Source: Craspedostauros australis (taxonomy: Eukaryota; Bacillariophyta; Bacillariophyceae; Mastogloiales; Achnanthaceae). From it: 64,000 nucleotides of DNA. Positions 47,979 to 58,512 of the stretch are shown one piece after another. The notes below the pieces were generated by a model. It searched no databases, was not told where the DNA came from, and was given only the letters and a program-made list of their open reading frames with translations. Location: contig JAMXDE010000005.1 of assembly GCA_026770025.1 (NCBI GenBank), forward strand, positions 496,001 to 560,000, given 5' to 3'. A program made the position numbers and the translations under genes. Position 1 is the stretch's first letter. The number at the start of each line of letters is the position of its first letter.

Positions 47979-49091
47979 ATGAGAATGAGCACAGCACGCA
48001 TGCCAACAGACGGCATGTACACAGCAGGACGACTTTCGGTGGCGTCCTACAACGTTTGGTTCGGTCCGCCGGACCCAGCAGCACGAGGTGTGCACCCAGA
48101 AGAACGCATGGATGCCATCGTGGATCTTCTCCATGACAGGAGCATCAACTTCAACAACAGTCCATCATCAAAGGATGGCAAAAGAATGCATGACTTCATT
48201 GGCTTTCAAGAGGTCACGATGGAGCTGGCCGGCATTCTGGTGCCCAAGCTCAAGTGCCTTGGGTACCATGTTGTGCTGCAGCCCGAGGTCGCCAACGCCT
48301 ACGGCTGTGCATTGGCAGTTCCAAGATCAGCATTCAATGCGATGGACCGATCCAATGCGGAAACCAAGTCCTCCTTGCCATTCTCGACATTCACGCCTTA
48401 CTGCAACTCCGTGATGGCCAGAGGCATTCTCCATTTCCGAACCGCGACGCACCTGTACTGCACCACGCATCTGGAGTCCTACCTCTCGAAGGAGTCCGAC
48501 GGATCAAAGCAGCGCGAAAGACAGATGCTGGAGATCGAGAACTTTTGCAAGCGCCAGTTCCAGCTATTTCCCTTGTTGGAAGCTGCGATCGTGCTGGGAG
48601 ATCTGAACTGGGACGACGAACGGGCGAGGTCGACGGGGGCCAACCGGATGCTGCTGGATACTCTGCACGACAGCTCTCAATGGAAGGACACGTGGTTGGA
48701 ATGGCATGGCACCACTGCCTCCACCCCCGTCGCCGCCGGTGCAAAACGAAAGTCCGCAAAGCCGAAGAAAATCCCTATCGGGGGATTCACGTATGATGGC
48801 AAGCTAAACCCCATGCTCAGCGGCAGCCTGCGGCGGCGCTTCGATCGGTGCCTGGTGTTCGCCAACGAAAGCAAGGTTGATGTCTCCTCGTACAACGTCG
48901 ATGACTTTCGACTGGTTGGCCAGTCGGCATTGGTCGACAAACGAACCAAGCAGCCGCTGCAGTACAGAAAGTTCAACCCGTGGCAAGAAACCCACAGGTC
49001 GGTACCCGTTGCCGCCTCCGACCACTTCGGACTGGTGATATCGCTCTCCACCGATGCTCAGAGCGCGGGAGGCGATCCTGCTGCGTCATGA
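47979..49091 (+). CDS. TDP2: TDP2-like tyrosyl-DNA phosphodiesterase (EEP family)
   Basis: 370 aa, single exon, ATG at 47979. It has the endonuclease/exonuclease/phosphatase motifs in order: SVASYNVWFGP, DFIGFQEVT (metal-binding Glu), CTTHLES, LGDLNWDDE (catalytic Asp/Asn), FTYDGKLNPMLSG, RRFDRCLVF and the C-terminal SDHFGL with its catalytic His. The SYNVWF, HLES, NWDD, TYD..NPML and SDHFGL combination is that of the TDP2 branch as found in plants. TDP2 removes topoisomerase II peptides linked to DNA 5' ends by a phosphotyrosyl bond. A Lys-rich loop (AKRKSAKPKKIP) may be a nuclear signal. The vertebrate UBA domain is absent, as in plants. EEP membership is certain, TDP2 function likely. Confidence 0.82.
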   Translation: MRMSTARMPTDGMYTAGRLSVASYNVWFGPPDPAARGVHPEERMDAIVDLLHDRSINFNNSPSSKDGKRMHDFIGFQEVTMELAGILVPKLKCLGYHVVLQPEVANAYGCALAVPRSAFNAMDRSNAETKSSLPFSTFTPYCNSVMARGILHFRTATHLYCTTHLESYLSKESDGSKQRERQMLEIENFCKRQFQLFPLLEAAIVLGDLNWDDERARSTGANRMLLDTLHDSSQWKDTWLEWHGTTASTPVAAGAKRKSAKPKKIPIGGFTYDGKLNPMLSGSLRRRFDRCLVFANESKVDVSSYNVDDFRLVGQSALVDKRTKQPLQYRKFNPWQETHRSVPVAASDHFGLVISLSTDAQSAGGDPAAS

Positions 49092-49834: not shown

Positions 49835-52800
49835 ATGTCGTCGAGGGTGCTGGTGTTCCCCATCGACGCGCCGATCCATTCCATCAAGACGGATGATCAG
49901 CGCAAGAACTACCATGCGAGCTTGAACATTCGCTGGGGCAAGCACATGTCGTGGGATGTGCAGATCGGAGACGTCGTGGCGGTCGCCATCGCGGCGAACG
50001 GGGATGCTGCAGACAGCGAGGATATCGTGGTGACGAGACGCACCATCATGGACTGGCATCCCGAGCAGAACAAGAAAGAATGGCAACCTGCGCTGGTGCT
50101 GGGTCTGCAGGAGATGCTGTCGCGAAACGGGGAAGCGCGCTTCGTGGCCCACGTGCAGTGGCTTGTGATGGCGGCGCAGAACCCAGCCATAGCGAAGCAG
50201 CTCAAGAAAGAGTCCGTCTTCCATCCGCAGCTCCAGCTCCCCTACATCATCTTGTCGACGCCGCAGCAGGGGGAGGTGGATCTCAGGCGCATCTATCCGA
50301 CCAAGATCACCATGATCGACAAGGTGCTCCTCAAGGACAAGACATTTCACAAGGAGGCACGGCACGAGGAATGGTGGTTTCAGATGTACTTTCACTGTGC
50401 CAAGGCTGTCCACGGTTTGAAGACGACTGCGACGAAGCCAAAAGCGAAGATCACGCTGTCATCGCAGCGCCATGATGACTGGCAGTTCCTCAGCTACATC
50501 GACGGCCACAGATACCAGACCGACAGAACGAAGCTGCCGAAGGGGTTGCAGGTCGGGTGGAACGAGTGGACCGACATCAAGGATCTCACCGCCATCGGTG
50601 ACATGCAGCTGCTGCTCGCGTGCGTAGAGGGATTCCGCAAGGTCCGCTGGGAACGGCTTCGAAAGGAGTTCTCACAGATAGAACAGGAGCAGGAACACCA
50701 CCAGCAGGAACAGCAGCAGCAGCAACAGCAGCAGCCGTTCCGAGAAAATTGCCATATCTCTCCCAAGGCGGTGTCCAGCGCCATGCAATTGATTCCTGCA
50801 ACGCTGAAGCCCAGCACCCGGAAACGGCGAGATTCGTCGTCGAAACCAGCATCCACCAATAAACGCGTTCGAATCTCAACAGCACCACAAGTTGCAAGTT
50901 CGGCATCAGCATCAGCAGCGAAAACGTCAAAGAACGCACAGCCATCCACCAAGTCACGACGTGCATCGTCAAAGCCACCATCTAAGTCGACAGGAAAACC
51001 GAGCAGCACCAAGCGATCGAAACGAAGGAGCGATGTCGTGGGGAGCACAGTTGGGTCGACACCAACCCGACGTATGGCAAAGCAGAAAACTGCTTCCTCT
51101 GCACATGCTCAGCAGCGGCAGCACGATCCAAGCAGCCTCAGTCTACCCCAACACGAGGAACTGGATGACCACGGCATCCAGCGAATAGAAGGCCCCGATC
51201 CAATCAAGGCTACTCCCATCCGGCACTCCGAACGCATCAGAGAAATCAGCGGGCGGCAGTACTTCTTGCAGATTATCCTGCCCGTTGACACTTCTCAACT
51301 GTCCTACGATGCCAACATGATGTCACAAGGTGGGCATGAATGGGACGTGAAAGTCGGGCAAGTTGTGGCCGTTGCCTGCATCGATTCAATTCTGCCTACC
51401 ACCATGCTGCCAGCTCACAATGGGAATCCGTGGCATCCCTTCAAACAGCCATGGAGTCCAGCGCAGATCGTGGGGGTGTTCTGCGACGTCCATACCAAGG
51501 AATGGAACCTTCAAGTGCGGTGGCTGAACCGCTTCGCAGACTATACCTCCAGCCGGCAGCAGGGGGTGATCCACAAAACCTTCGGCTCCAATGCCAGCGC
51601 CTGCCACGTGTTCTTCGATTGCAAGAGAGTCGACATGGTGCCCATCCTCTCTGTGCTCCCTGCCCACGTCCGGGTCAAGACCGACGACGGGTCTGATTGG
51701 TCTCCCGTCATCTCCAGCCAATCGTTGATCCCCACGCTACACATCAAGTGCACTCACAGAACGTCCGGGGCGAAGAAATTCACATGCAAGAAGATAGACG
51801 ACTGGGAGAATTATCACGACGAAGCGAACACATTCCCCAAGGCGCTCCAGTACGGGCTCAAGGGCGTCTACAAGGACGTCTACTCCCCAATCTTCAAGGC
51901 GGCCAAGTACAACGCGATGGTAGCCGCAGCGCCAGTGGAACTGAAAACGCGAGTTTGGGCAAGCCAAGGCATCACTTTCTTTGATGCTGCCGAGATTCCG
52001 ATAGCGCACGTGGCCCTGCTGAAGAAGCCATTCGGTCCAAACCAACTCAGCCAGACGATCGCCGTGGGTGACGTCGTCCCCACCATGCTGGAATCCTCGG
52101 ATGATTCGTTCATCTCGCGGCCTGGCGCAGCGATCAATCCATTCCGATGCGACTTTGACATGGCGCAGATCGTGGCCATCCTTCAAGGGCCGGGAGATGC
52201 CATTCGCCTCCAAGTACGTTGGATCATCCGGTTCCAAAATCTGGATTTGCAGCAGGTCATGCAACTGCAAGACTTCCAAAAGCCGTTCAATGTCTTCGAG
52301 ACCGAGCATTACGACACCATACCGATCGATCGCGTTCTCCCTGGCAGGGTCATCCTCACGTCGTGCCCGAAGGAAGGCATGGATGAAGCCAAGCATTGGA
52401 AGCCCGTCAAGGGTCCTGAGAGTGGATTGCCGATCATACCGATGCTCTGCAAGCACATGCTGTGGGATGACGAAGTTGAGGATGTGCAAGATTGGAACTT
52501 GTTCGATGTCAGCATGAAAGCATTCCCCGCCCCCTTGGTTCGTGGCCTCACGAGCAAACCACCGAACCGGACGAACAAGGAATGGGTTGACATGCTGTTC
52601 CGTGCGTACAGAATGTCAATGGCGAAGCGGCATGTTCCCATCGATGCAAGCGTCTTCGGCATTTGGGCAGGCGAAGCGAGCGCCGAGAATGACAAATTTG
52701 CCACGCTGCATGCCGAACTCGTCACTGTCAGCTGCGGACCATGTCTGGGTTCCTGCAAAACAACGCACGGTGCCGAGGAGCTGCTGGAGAGCGCATCCGC

Positions 52801-55800
52801 TTCCATCGTCGTCAAGCGGTACGCATCCCTGCCGAAGGGTCCCAAGGCAGCGCACGGCAAAGCATGGACCTTCAAGCTCGGAGACCTGGTTTGCTACGCG
52901 AATGGTGATGCCGCTATCACCAAACCGTTCGGCAATGCAGCAAACTCGGTGAACCCATGGCATCCATTCTACACCAAGTGGTCGTACGCACAAGTCGTTG
53001 CCATTCGCAAACAAGGCGAGGCCGGCATCACGGTTGATCTCCGCTGTTTCTTTCGACCATCCGAACTGCCAGACTCGGTCGCCACCTGCGCGCCACCAAC
53101 GCTGCACGATGGCAAGAGAACAGTGTTCGAGTCCAACGAGTTGCGCCTGGGTCTTCCGGCAGCTTTCATTCTTGGTCCTGCGCTTCTCTTTCTGGGTTGT
53201 CACAAGGTCTCTCGGAGCCTATTGCGTCAAAATTCGTCGCTCCTTCCCGCAATGACTTGCAGATCCCAATACTTCTTCCATCTGGCAACGAACCAATTCC
53301 AGCCGATCCAACACCTTGAGATATCGCCAGCCAGCTGGCATCAATACTGCCAGCAGCGTGGACTGTTCGCTTGGGCGTCTCAAGAAGGCCTGTTCAGTTC
53401 TGCCAAGGCGATCATCGCAACGTACCTCCAACACCAAACCACGACCGAAAGCAAAAACCCGACGATATTTTCGCAATCAGACGCTCCGATTCGAGCAAGC
53501 ATCAGCCTCGAAGATGACGCATCGGGATCGCAGGGGAAACGGCTCCGTATGCTTACACCTGAAGCCAAACTCGCCCTGTTGGCGTCAAGTGCCCACGACG
53601 AACAATTGGCCGTCAACAACATCCCTTGGGATGCCCATGTCGGAGACTACGTGGCATTCGAAAACGGCGAAACTGGGTTCGACGCGGAGTTTCCCTTCAC
53701 AGTCAAATGGAAGTGCGGTCGCATCGTGGATATGTCCGCGCGCAACCAAAATTCCAGCAAAACAGAAGCATTGAATAGCAGCCCGATTGTCGTGGCCGTA
53801 AGACCATTGGTCGCAACGCCGTACAACCGAGGCGATGGGTTCATCTTGGAGCTCGAGGAAGATCCGAAAGCTTCGATTGTGGAGCTCTCCCCGCAAGATA
53901 TTCTGGCACCACTCTCCATGATATCTCCCGGGGTACGCATGCGCTCAATGTGGCAACAAGGCATCCCGCGCCTGCCAGTCATCCTGTGCACTCGTCCGCC
54001 ACAGGCCGCTGCGGACGATTCGCAACTGCCTGCTGCGACGCAACGCACTTCGCCCAGTTCTGACGATGTCAAAGACACGAAGGCTAGGAGCACGGACAAG
54101 CATCACGCCTTGCTCGCTTCTGCACCAACGCACGAAGACGCGTCGTCTCGACAAGTGTTTCACGACTCGTTTCTGATCACTCCACCCTACGACAGCTACT
54201 CGGATGACGTGCATCCGCAGCAACCACCCACAAATCGATGGGAAGTCCGCCGAGGCGACATCGTAAGCGTCATGCTTGGTCCGCAGCACAAGAAGCGCTA
54301 CCCAATGCAAGTTGGATGGGGCGTTGTGCAAATCCTCGCCATCTGGATGTTACACGACGACTTCCACAGCGCCGAGCCATCAATACAAGGGGATCACAAG
54401 TCTGCCATAGATTGTGTTGCACTGCCCAAATCCAAGGTTCACGTGGAGATACGGTGGTTCTGGGACTCGTCGGATATCGCTGGCTCTAGTTCCAGACGGA
54501 ACACCGTTGACCCCAGCAATGAGCTCTTCGAAACTGACCATGTGGATGTGATAACGGCCGAGAGCATCCTGTCACCCGCGAAGCTCTATGCAGATTCCAA
54601 CAGCATTGTGCACATGGATTCCCAGCAAGGGATGCCCGTTCCTCAATTCCAGTGCCAACGATTTTGGTCTGTGACGAAGCAATCTCTTGTTCCCACGGGA
54701 GGCTTGGAGGGACTGGTCCAACGTGGCAACCTTCATTCGAAGTTCTCTCACGTCAACGCCTCACGCCATCAACAGCAACAGAGACAGCTGCCGGGTGCTG
54801 ACGGGAGGTCGGCATCAACCTGGCAGCAGTCGTTTGCTAGCGTCATACGCAAGCTGACCTTGAAGGATGCGTCGACAGCAGCGTACGAGAAGAGCGAGAC
54901 GTTGGTGGGTCGCGAAAGCGAACTTCATCGATTGCACACGTTCCTGACAGCTGCAATCCGAGGCGATCGAGCCAACGGCGATGTGAAGAGCTCCATCCTT
55001 TTGGCTGGTCCTCCTGGAGTAGGTAAGTGACGACATTGGCCAGCATCCCAATTTTGCTGCTGCGGACAGTGAGCCACAGCGATTGGTGCAATCTCGTACT
55101 CTTCTCTTATTCGTACTTGGAGTACCGTGCCTACATTCTCTCGGCACGACACGCGAATCCTGTATGACAGCGTCAAGAAACGACAATGCATGGGCACAGA
55201 ACGATCGGCCACTACAAGTAGTGCCGCGGTTGGTTGCATCGTTCTCTCCGTTCGCCCCTCCCAGGACAGCAACGCCATCCACCAATGCTTCCTTTCTCAT
55301 TCCATTTCGATTTTTGCGTTTACTGCCGCACTCGCGCTTGCACTCTATCACTCTGTGTCGGCCAGGCAAAACTGCGTGTGTGCGATCTGTGATGGAAAGC
55401 CTCAACACCGAGCAACGCCAAGGACGACTTCCAGCGTTTCGATTCATCAAGCTGAACGGCATGGAAATGAACGACCCTCGCGAGGCATACGTGCGGTTGT
55501 GGAATGCCCTAGAGGGAAATGGAGCATTGCAATCGCCCGATGTGGCCTGCAGAAACCTGGAAGCGTACTTCACTCGCAAAGGCAAACCGGCGCCGAATGA
55601 ATTGGTCTCTGTCGTCCTGTTGGATGAGATTGATTATCTCGTGACTGATCAACAAACGGTGCTCTACAACTTCTTCGACTGGCCACAGCGTGTGGCGGAA
55701 CAGGAGAGTGGACGGCGGTTGGTCGTAATTGGTATCTCAAATACCCTCAACCTCGCTGAGCGCCTCATGGGCAGAGTGCGATCTCGCGTGGGCAAGGAGA

Positions 55801-57232
55801 AGCTGAGCTTCCTTGCGTACGATGTTGCCGAGATCGTGAAGATCTTGAATTCGAAGGTTGAGCAGGCGAATCCAGTAAGTCTTCTTCGTTCTCTTCTTTG
55901 GGCTGCATGCGGCATACCACCGTGATGCGAAGAGCGCGCTCCACTTGTTTGGACTGCGGTGCCTCGCCGCAAACGCCTGTGATGGTGATTGGTGCTGGTA
56001 CTGCTGATGTTTCTACTCTCTTTACATTGCTCCGCTCTCTTCGTGTACCCCGCTCGCAGATGTACACATCATAGGACGACTAATGGGGAGGATGCTGGTG
56101 GCAAGAGCTTTGCACAGGAGCTCTTTCTGTTGGCTCTCGTCACAAACAGTATTGTGGGTTGTCTTCGCAACCGACAATTACCATAGTCACACACGCACGA
56201 GGTTTTGCATCACATGATCCAATATTCGTCTCAACCATTGCCTTGCTTTCATCTTCGCACGACGCAATCAACAACCGGCTCGACAACTGTCTCCTGAAGA
56301 CGCACCCCGTGTTGCACAAAGACGCCATCACGTTCGCGGCGAAGAAGACGGCTGCCCTGTGCGGAGATATCCGGAAGGCATTCCTCCTTTGTCGTTCGGC
56401 GGCTGAAGCAGTGAAGGCTGATTTCATCCAAAACGCCAAAGATGACCCAAATGCATCACCGATTGTGCGTGTCCCGGACATCCAAAAGGCCAGCACCCGA
56501 TCCTTCTTCAACGCATCTCAGATCGAACCAATCTCTACATCTTCAGCCTATGAAGCGCTCCTGCTTGTTTCAATCGCAGCGTTGCGGAAGCACACGGGAC
56601 GCGAAGTGGGGAACTTTGATATCCAAGAGGTCATGGCAAAGATGAGTGCCGTCGCATCTTCCAGCGGATATCCGCTCTTCGCACAAATCCCGACTTTCGA
56701 TCAGACGTTGCGCTTGCTGGAGCAGCTGCACCAAGTAAGTGGGACCGATGATTGGATGGATACCTGTGTGCATGTGTGTGTAGTCGTTATTCATGTGTGG
56801 TTGCGTGGTTATTGCGATATTTTGCACGCCATGTGCAAGGCGGGCTGATTCCTTTCACACCACCTACCATGTGAGATGTATCCGCCACTTGACGGTGGCT
56901 GCATAGCTTCGCGCCCGTATAAATCCGGTTCACCCAGCGCGCACGACGATGAGAGATGTTCGACCGACGCCACGCTAAACTTCTCATCACATTTCTATGT
57001 CCTTTTCCATAACTACCCGCACACCCGCACATGTGGCGTTGATCCCATGACACCGTAGCGAACTCTCGTTCAACTTGCCACAGCGCGGAGCACAAGCTCC
57101 AGTTTCAGAGCCTCTCGCGGCGGCAGCGGAGGTGCGTGGCCATTGATCACTTTGCCTGTCGAATCCAGCACGCTGCTCCGAGGCTTGCGGGACACACCAT
57201 ACGCAGCATTCGCACGCAAATTCTTGTCGTAA
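49835..57232 (+). CDS. ORC1: Origin recognition complex subunit 1 with about six BAH-like modules
   Basis: Four exons: 49835-55022, 55366-55874, 56300-56734 and 57059-57232; together 6306 nt, about 2101 aa. Donors are GTAAGT; the third exon's acceptor is the least sure. The C-terminal ~410 residues are ORC1: GRESELHRL, Walker A AGPPGVGKT split by intron 1, Walker B VVLLDEID, the ORC1 signature VLYNFFDWP, sensor 1 VIGISNTLNLAERL followed by RVRSRVGKEKLSF, AAKKTAALCGDIRKAF, and a C-terminal winged-helix end. The N-terminal ~1690 residues hold BAH-like modules beginning near residues 39, 502, 739, 1010, 1264 and 1468. Each starts with a W-x(4)-GD/GQ-x-V motif, then xxAQIVxI, a QVRW-type strand, and an end like FETDHVDVITAESIL. 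ORC1 normally has one BAH and 600-900 residues. A Gln run and a basic linker separate modules 1 and 2. ORC1 loads MCM helicase at origins. Confidence 0.93.
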
Positions 57233-57696: not shown

Positions 57697-58512
57697 TTAC
57701 TTGCGCCCTTCAGATGGCGATTTGTTGGATTGTTTGCGTCGCGACAAGTTTCGGAACCCCATCGAAACTTTCTCTCTTGCAACCTCGTCCGTGACGCATT
57801 CCCAGCAATCATCGTCTCCTCGTTTCAAAAACCTCCCTCCCACTTCCTGAATCTCGCGAACAATCAGGGAACTGATCGTGGTCTTCCGAATCTTGTCCCT
57901 CGTCTGAGTGTAGACATCTTGGGTCGTCTTGATGCGATTGTTAAGCGCGATGTTGCCAGGAAAGTTCTGATAGGGATTCCCACGCCCCAAAAGCACGTCC
58001 CTGTGCGATGGACACAATATCTTGTCACCGAGCAGTGTTGCCTGGAGCTCGGCTTTGGCACTCTCCTGCTCCACCAACAAGCTGTGCGATCTTACGAAAT
58101 CCTCCTTGCTCACCTCGCCCGACGGCGTCACTGGAGCGCCGCGGATGCCGTACGATGCCAGAGTGCGCTGGCAATCTGCGTGAGAACCTGCAGGTGTTTG
58201 GGATGGTTCATCATTGAGTATGCATGGTATGGTTGGTATGGCATGGTGCGGACGTGGGAGGGTGTGGTGGAGTGTAGCGGAATGCCGTGGAATGGCAAAG
58301 AGTGTCGCGGGGCGTGTTGTGGCGTGTCGAAAATATATGGTGAGTTTTGCCATTGTCGTTGAAAAAATGAGACGGTGGCGTTTGCAAGCACACTCTCTGA
58401 AAGTACTCGTGTCGCGTACCCGTACGGCACGAGTATACGAATGGTACCATGCGAACATGGGAGCGGAGAATTGCGGTCTTGTCTTGATGGATGCACGATC
58501 AAATGGACACAT
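57697..58512 (-). CDS. DUF6824-domain protein
   Basis: An open frame of 271 aa with an ATG at 58512; the domain lies in the last ~110 residues. It has the DUF6824 pattern DVLLGRGNPYQNFPGN, a helical middle, GGRFLKRGDDDCWECV and DEVAREKVSMGFRNLSRRKQ. The family is abundant in diatoms; its function is unknown, though it looks like a compact nucleic-acid-binding-size domain with a basic tail. The first ~110 residues (58512-58180) are His/Pro/Thr-rich and come from DNA with GGTATGG-type repeats, so they may be UTR or intron; the real 5' end is uncertain. A GTGAGC at about 58109 could be a donor site. Domain secure, gene model not. Confidence 0.7.
   Translation of the reverse strand: MCPFDRASIKTRPQFSAPMFAWYHSYTRAVRVRDTSTFRECACKRHRLIFSTTMAKLTIYFRHATTRPATLFAIPRHSATLHHTLPRPHHAIPTIPCILNDEPSQTPAGSHADCQRTLASYGIRGAPVTPSGEVSKEDFVRSHSLLVEQESAKAELQATLLGDKILCPSHRDVLLGRGNPYQNFPGNIALNNRIKTTQDVYTQTRDKIRKTTISSLIVREIQEVGGRFLKRGDDDCWECVTDEVAREKVSMGFRNLSRRKQSNKSPSEGRK

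Follow-up and report, generated by a model that had tools for sequence, protein, structure and literature searches.

Six BAH-type modules on the ORC1 protein of the diatom Craspedostauros australis: a probably duplicated array and candidate multivalent nucleosome tether

ORC1 is among the most conserved proteins of DNA replication, and we know of no ORC1 that carries more than one BAH domain. In this report, we are describing an ORC1 gene of the diatom Craspedostauros australis, which lies at positions 49835-57232 of a 64,000-nucleotide stretch of contig JAMXDE010000005.1 (positions 496,001 to 560,000; hereafter, the window) and whose product carries six BAH-type modules ahead of its AAA+ part. 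While ORC1 itself is a known protein, the BAH array on it appears to be new; neither a diatom ORC1 nor a multi-BAH ORC1 is described among the papers listed by the literature searches, as judged by titles and the beginnings of abstracts. Overall, we lean, with reserve, towards interpreting the array as a duplicated set of BAH modules that would tether ORC1 multivalently to nucleosomes.

The gene, including all parts and modules given below, is on the plus strand. A frame at 49835-55030 is open for 1731 codons, the last approximately 40 of which encode an ORC1-type AAA+ start that ends in GPPGVG and is followed by GTAAGT. Upon crossing intron 1 (55023-55365; GTAAGT...CAG), which splits a glycine codon of Walker A, reading continues at 55366 with KTACV, and the motif is thus completed across the splice. 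Altogether, there are three GTAAGT...AG introns, across which exon 1 reads on in frame into the exons for AAA+, lid and winged helix. Exon 1 (49835-55022) comprises the start codon, the six modules, a basic linker and the first part of AAA+; exon 2 (55366-55874) the Walker A KT, Walker B and the sensor region; exon 3 (56300-56734) the AAA+ lid and the start of the winged helix; and exon 4 (57059-57232), joined in frame via intron 3 (56735-57058), the end of the winged helix and the stop codon at 57232. For intron 2 (55875-56299), the acceptor was picked via relatives; the alternative acceptor at 56149 was dropped and the exon 3 start moved from 56150 to 56300, because the 50 extra residues have no counterpart in any of 12 aligned relatives, and the acceptor at 56299 removes them. 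The protein has 2101 residues (2151 with the alternative acceptor), in agreement with a first-pass annotation of the window, which had proposed a single ORC1 gene for a protein of approximately 2100 residues with about six BAH-like modules. Since Walker A spans the splice, exon 1 is not a separate gene; on this splice model, it forms one gene together with the AAA+ exons, as had been supposed. A query with exon 2 found one place in the 74.8-Mb genome, making ORC1 single copy.

Judged by its AAA+ half, the C. australis protein is an ORC1 with intact ATPase motifs (Walker A, GPPGVGKT; Walker B, LLDEID). Among 26 distinct sequences matched in the PDB, the best 11 are all ORC1 (E 3.3e-39 to 7.3e-35), the first non-ORC1 match being CDC6 (E 8.2e-23), and the AAA+ half is placed among ORC1s in a tree. 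The AAA+ lid scores 34.5 bits with Pfam, and both lid and winged helix are supported by C-terminal alignment with relatives; Cdc6_C, the winged-helix family of Pfam, was missing from the matches to the C-terminal segment scanned, which excluded exon 4.

Profiles find all six modules at the places first proposed. Module 1 (residues 36-185; 49940-50389) is BAH-like and the most diverged; modules 2 (residues 501-640; 51335-51754), 3 (residues 738-875; 52046-52459) and 6 (residues 1467-1612; 54233-54670) are of BAH type; module 4 (residues 1009-1145; 52859-53269) is BAH by profile, with an hhalign value of 96.2 to an outgroup ORC1 BAH; and module 5 (residues 1263-1383; 53621-53983) is BAH-like. 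Leave-one-out profiles, from which the tested module was excluded and in the building of which module 1 was never used, gave 14.8 (module 1, with the profile of modules 2-6), 74.0, 46.9, 33.3, 9.3 and 45.4 bits for modules 1 to 6, with the match of module 5 spanning only residues 1265-1307; the best score per profile in 200 shuffles of residues 1-1690 was 0.8-3.6 bits. BLAST between the six stretches cut around the modules linked 5 of 15 pairs at E < 1e-4. With hhalign profiles from 11 colinear proteins (C. australis ORC1 and ten relatives), modules 2-6 are mutually related at 97.6-99.9, some across only 40-55 columns, and module 1 is linked less tightly (90.3 to module 5, 82.7 to 2, 64.3 to 3, 28.5 to 6 and 0.5 to 4). 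Against outgroup ORC1 BAHs, modules 2-6 reach probabilities of 62.5-97.9 and scores of 31.5-77.7, with shuffled-column maxima of 16.0-26.0 (60 shuffles each). Between modules 1 and 2, a linker (residues 286-462; 50690-51220), mostly of low predicted confidence, is basic, with 31 Lys and Arg versus 12 Asp and Glu in 177 residues; Ser, Thr, Ala, Pro and Gln account for 97 of the 177. Disordered regions of metazoan Orc1 are likewise reported to be basic (PMC11077064).

The BAH profile of Pfam (PF01426), which the first-pass annotation had put forward as a check together with structure prediction, matches the whole exon 1 product (33.6 bits; cut-off 30.8), but none of the six segments scanned apart passes the cut-off (module 6, 21.5 bits; module 3, 12.3 bits). 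On the Cylindrotheca protein P0002, it scores 47.4 bits in three stretches. This low sensitivity of Pfam to diatom ORC1 modules may explain why the array has gone unnoticed. A sequence search with exon 1 gave no PDB match, and in a six-frame search of the own genome with modules 2-3 (E up to 1), the ORC1 gene was the sole match; the PF01426 search of the own genome found none, but is uninformative, as there was none in 14 control genomes either. Structure matching of predicted models supported the proposed BAH fold for modules 2, 3 and 6, with the models of modules 3 and 6 matching the metazoan ORC1 BAH and that of module 2 the yeast Orc1 BAH at 7% identity; modules 1, 4 and 5 had no fold match of their own.

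Relatives came from searches with the AAA+ part, which yielded at least 49 and at least 109 proteins in partly overlapping sets, each search scoring only about 8000 candidates that share most words; by contrast, when residues 1-1731 served as the protein query, none of 8000 candidates was a relative at E 0.001. Modules were counted in 134 sequences including C. australis ORC1 (P0134 is in no tally), with profiles built from the eleven six-module proteins, the ten relatives having been chosen for colinearity. The diatom-clade set comprises C. australis ORC1 and P0002-P0074 (74 proteins), 65 of which form one clade with support 100, the other 9 being absent from the tree; there, C. australis ORC1 clusters with a Bacillariaceae set (9 rows, support 99). 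This tree, made by a quick method and with long branches, holds 122 rows from 134 sequences, with 3 omitted deliberately and 9 because their Walker A match or their length was inadequate. Proteins with one, two, three, four, five and six modules number 13, 10, 16, 10, 12 and 13 in the diatom-clade set, while among 59 other ORC1s (P0075-P0133) 40 have none, 19 one and 0 more than one. Outside diatoms, the profile is less sensitive, given that a precomputed BAH label from Pfam is attached to 23 of the 40 ORC1s without a match; when 10 outgroup ORC1s were scanned with Pfam, each showed one BAH stretch.

Six modules are found in Cylindrotheca fusiformis (P0002), Nitzschia inconspicua (P0010, P0011), Psemu1 (P0045), which we take to be Pseudo-nitzschia multiseries, and a Bacillariaceae metagenome-assembled genome (P0033); five in Mayamaea and Epithemia; four in both Fistulifera solaris proteins, in Ditylum and in a Pseudo-nitzschia australis protein; three in a Thalassiosira sp.; and two in Skeletonema potamos. 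The counts lean on gene models, and N-terminally cut proteins are undercounted, such as that of P. australis (P0009), which starts inside module 3; the low counts of P0062, P0064 and P0072 within multi-module clades are probably due to truncated proteins. Seven diatom-clade ORC1s of 743-791 residues with one detected module (P0052-P0058) are either real one-module proteins or short gene models; a real one may exist in P0056, labelled a complete open reading frame. All ten colinear relatives align from module 1 to Walker A or further, and P0002, P0010 and P0011 do so on through AAA+, uniting six modules and AAA+ in one protein model; P0026 and P0032 (MMETSP, labelled complete) have three modules and AAA+ in one frame. 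The multi-module ORC1, first noted as a feature of one protein, holds up in other diatoms and is rather a trend across the diatom clade, in which the number of modules ranges from 1 to 6. Elsewhere in the tally, a separate group of four ORC1s (P0075-P0078) is labelled PWWP as well as BAH, with Pfam placing PWWP at 32-120 (63.1 bits) and BAH at 254-381 (61.6 bits) of P0075; this would be another lineage with a chromatin reader added to ORC1.

How the array may have arisen can be approached from the position of its members. The last module before AAA+ matches best with the module 6 profile in all 23 diatom-clade proteins compared (chosen from the 74; 4 contributed to the profiles), and of ten outgroup ORC1 BAHs, five match best with module 6 and five with module 2, the latter including one that matches module 4 equally well and one that reaches no more than 1 bit. 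Among seven five-module proteins compared, the order at the end is 4-5-6 in five (P0003, P0005, P0014, P0018, P0021); P0006 and P0017 differ from this at the fourth module. The closest similarity is between modules 2 and 3 (E 5e-34), and in several five-module proteins the second module scores about equally with both profiles (68 and 65 bits in P0003); therefore, modules 2 and 3 look like the latest duplication. A relaxed PFxxPWxxxQI motif occurs in 206 of 259 diatom-clade modules, including 12 of 13 single modules, versus none of the 10 ORC1 BAHs from the outgroup and 3 out of 259 shuffles; it is lacking in module 1 of C. australis ORC1, and the count is descriptive, the motif having been read off the same modules. 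This spread favours duplication of ORC1's own BAH over capture of foreign BAHs, with a single ancestral domain presumably duplicated repeatedly inside the gene. In four six-module proteins, every module matches best with the profile of its own position, which is so by construction; P0009, P0011 and P0028, outside profile building, match the position-specific profiles in order as well. By these comparisons, a module of the six-module relatives is shown to be closer to its same-position counterpart than to its siblings, and the modules are, hence, not interchangeable copies.

This differentiation extends to the positions that correspond to the aromatic cage of BAHD1 (Y645, W667 and Y669; PMC4791424), which were aligned across the 66 modules of the eleven sequences. 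Module 6 has the cage Trp and an aromatic residue two places on (Trp in C. australis) in all eleven, with a small residue at the first position, and module 2 has the Trp in 11/11 and the second aromatic in 9/11. The cage Trp is likewise kept in module 3 (11/11) and module 1 (10/11, Tyr in the remaining one), mostly without the other cage aromatics. At this position, module 4 has Arg in 10/11 and Cys in C. australis, and module 5 has no conserved residue, its first position being aromatic in 7/11. As only few modules look like lysine readers, the remaining ones are likely to have other contacts. Module 3 of P0033 (about residues 751-879), which alone among the 66 has aromatics at all three cage positions (Tyr, Trp and Tyr), is a candidate methyl-lysine reader.

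Taken together, the array would most likely work as a multivalent nucleosome tether, in which several modules make weak contacts with nucleosomes or histone tails and the basic linker touches DNA as well; jointly, array and linker would keep ORC on chromatin and influence which sites it licenses as origins. The likeliest histone-lysine readers would be module 6 and, in relatives, module 2, with two of three cage positions kept, while modules 4 and 5, devoid of the cage Trp, would more probably attach to nucleosome surfaces or to partner proteins, or else stabilise the array. Such multivalent nucleosome reading is plausible; for binding to the nucleosome face, the BAH of yeast Orc1 reportedly needs no methyl mark (PMC6602975). 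Several observations weigh against a tethering array. Modules 1 and 5 score weakly alone, four of the six segments scanned apart have no Pfam BAH match, module 1 is no better against an outgroup BAH (15.9) than its shuffled-column maximum (15.5; the 88.6 obtained with added relatives is not independent, these having been picked by module profile), and the model of residues 1-940 has a mean pLDDT of only 50.3. The three aligned cage aromatics occur together in none of the six C. australis modules, where module 2 has Asn in place of the Tyr of most relatives and the third cage residue is gone. In mammalian ORC1, the third cage residue comes from another loop, and absence at the aligned positions is not final. 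Furthermore, fly Orc1 disordered region without BAH is reported to resemble the full-length protein in chromatin dynamics (PMC11077064); hence, the principal tether may lie outside the BAH domains. Finally, methylated H4K20 was not detected by mass spectrometry or western blot in the Phaeodactylum tricornutum study, where K20 is acetylated (PMC4504042). The H4K20me2 reading of animal ORC1, to which the first-pass annotation had linked the array, is weakened by this and by the incomplete cages and seems not to be carried over, and the ligand is probably not H4K20me2.

Different roles of the array have to be considered. The extra modules might constitute a protein-protein scaffold or brace that binds partners or packs on ORC and reads no histones, as modelled by the yeast Orc1 BAH, which binds Sir1; we consider this possible, though not probable. 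It would account for the lost cage Trp of modules 4 and 5, the full aromatic trio in only 1 of 66 modules and the conserved LP...C.H...DW stretches that sit outside the BAH core after modules 2 and 3, and BAH domains have been described as scaffolds (PMC4791424). However, cage Trp or Tyr is retained by modules 1, 2, 3 and 6 throughout the eleven sequences, module 6 keeps its second aromatic, and the closest folds of the modelled modules are histone-binding BAH domains, even if a fold by itself shows no function. That the array regulates ORC, its modules packing on each other or on the ATPase and controlling ATPase activity or DNA entry, is improbable. DNMT1, with tandem BAHs built into one folded enzyme, would be the model for this, but paired alignments gave root-mean-square deviations of about 12 and 20 Å, so that a mutual arrangement is not shared, and the pTM values of the models are 0.32 and 0.55.

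Two further explanations dispense with a function of the array. Tandem copies could have been fixed by drift without functional gain, in line with the variation from 1 to 6 modules among relatives; this is very improbable, as each position has kept its own conserved residues despite only 22-27% identity to C. australis ORC1. Still less credible is an artefact that fuses an upstream BAH gene to a normal downstream ORC1. The 5.2-kb exon is indeed long and the C. australis gene model derives from sequence alone; yet exon 1 itself contains the AAA+ start, KT follows a canonical splice, and the colinearity of the ten relatives, although these were chosen for it, extends to Walker A or beyond.

A bolder reading, which we hold to be on the unlikely side, is that diatom origins are chosen by a combinatorial ORC1 reader, with up to six differentiated BAHs simultaneously engaging several histone states or adjacent nucleosomes; origin position would then be set by chromatin pattern and not by DNA sequence or H4K20me2. 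Phaeodactylum episomes are maintained by stretches of low guanine-plus-cytosine content, in which the authors report no motif (PMC4976089), leaving room for chromatin-based origin choice without showing it. Diatoms are major primary producers, and an array that expanded to six modules among them would be an experiment set up by nature on how a licensing factor is recruited to chromatin multivalently. Diatom origin choice thereby becomes testable, both by comparing lineages that differ in module number and by deleting single modules.

ORC1 is flanked by two further open frames in the window. Downstream, a minus-strand frame (57697-58512) encodes a DVLLGRG motif, presumably characteristic of a family of proteins that has expanded in diatoms; upstream, a 370-codon plus-strand frame (47979-49091) has a product that, we assume, resembles an endonuclease/exonuclease/phosphatase-type protein.

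Among known systems, metazoan ORC1 (PDB 4dov, 4dow), made up of BAH, AAA+ and winged helix, shares with C. australis ORC1 the AAA+ core and a BAH fold N-terminal to it, but has one such domain versus six, and its reported mark, H4K20me2 (PMC4791424, PMC11077064), was not detected in one diatom (PMC4504042). The ORC1s of plants and green algae have likewise added chromatin-reading capacity, however, by a PHD inserted into the BAH via domain rearrangement and not by extra BAHs (PMC7058166); section 11 of that paper describes BAH as patchy in ORC1, perhaps due to poor Pfam sensitivity, and mentions no BAH arrays. DNMT1 and PBRM1 (for the latter, PMC10425938) resemble the diatom protein in combining several BAHs in one chromatin protein, but have two, not six, and are not replication licensing factors. 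The BAH of yeast Orc1/Sir3 also belongs to an ORC1-family protein, and that of Orc1 contacts the H4 tail, the LRS region and the acidic patch of the nucleosome (PMC6602975); there, it is a single domain, compared to the six modules of C. australis ORC1.
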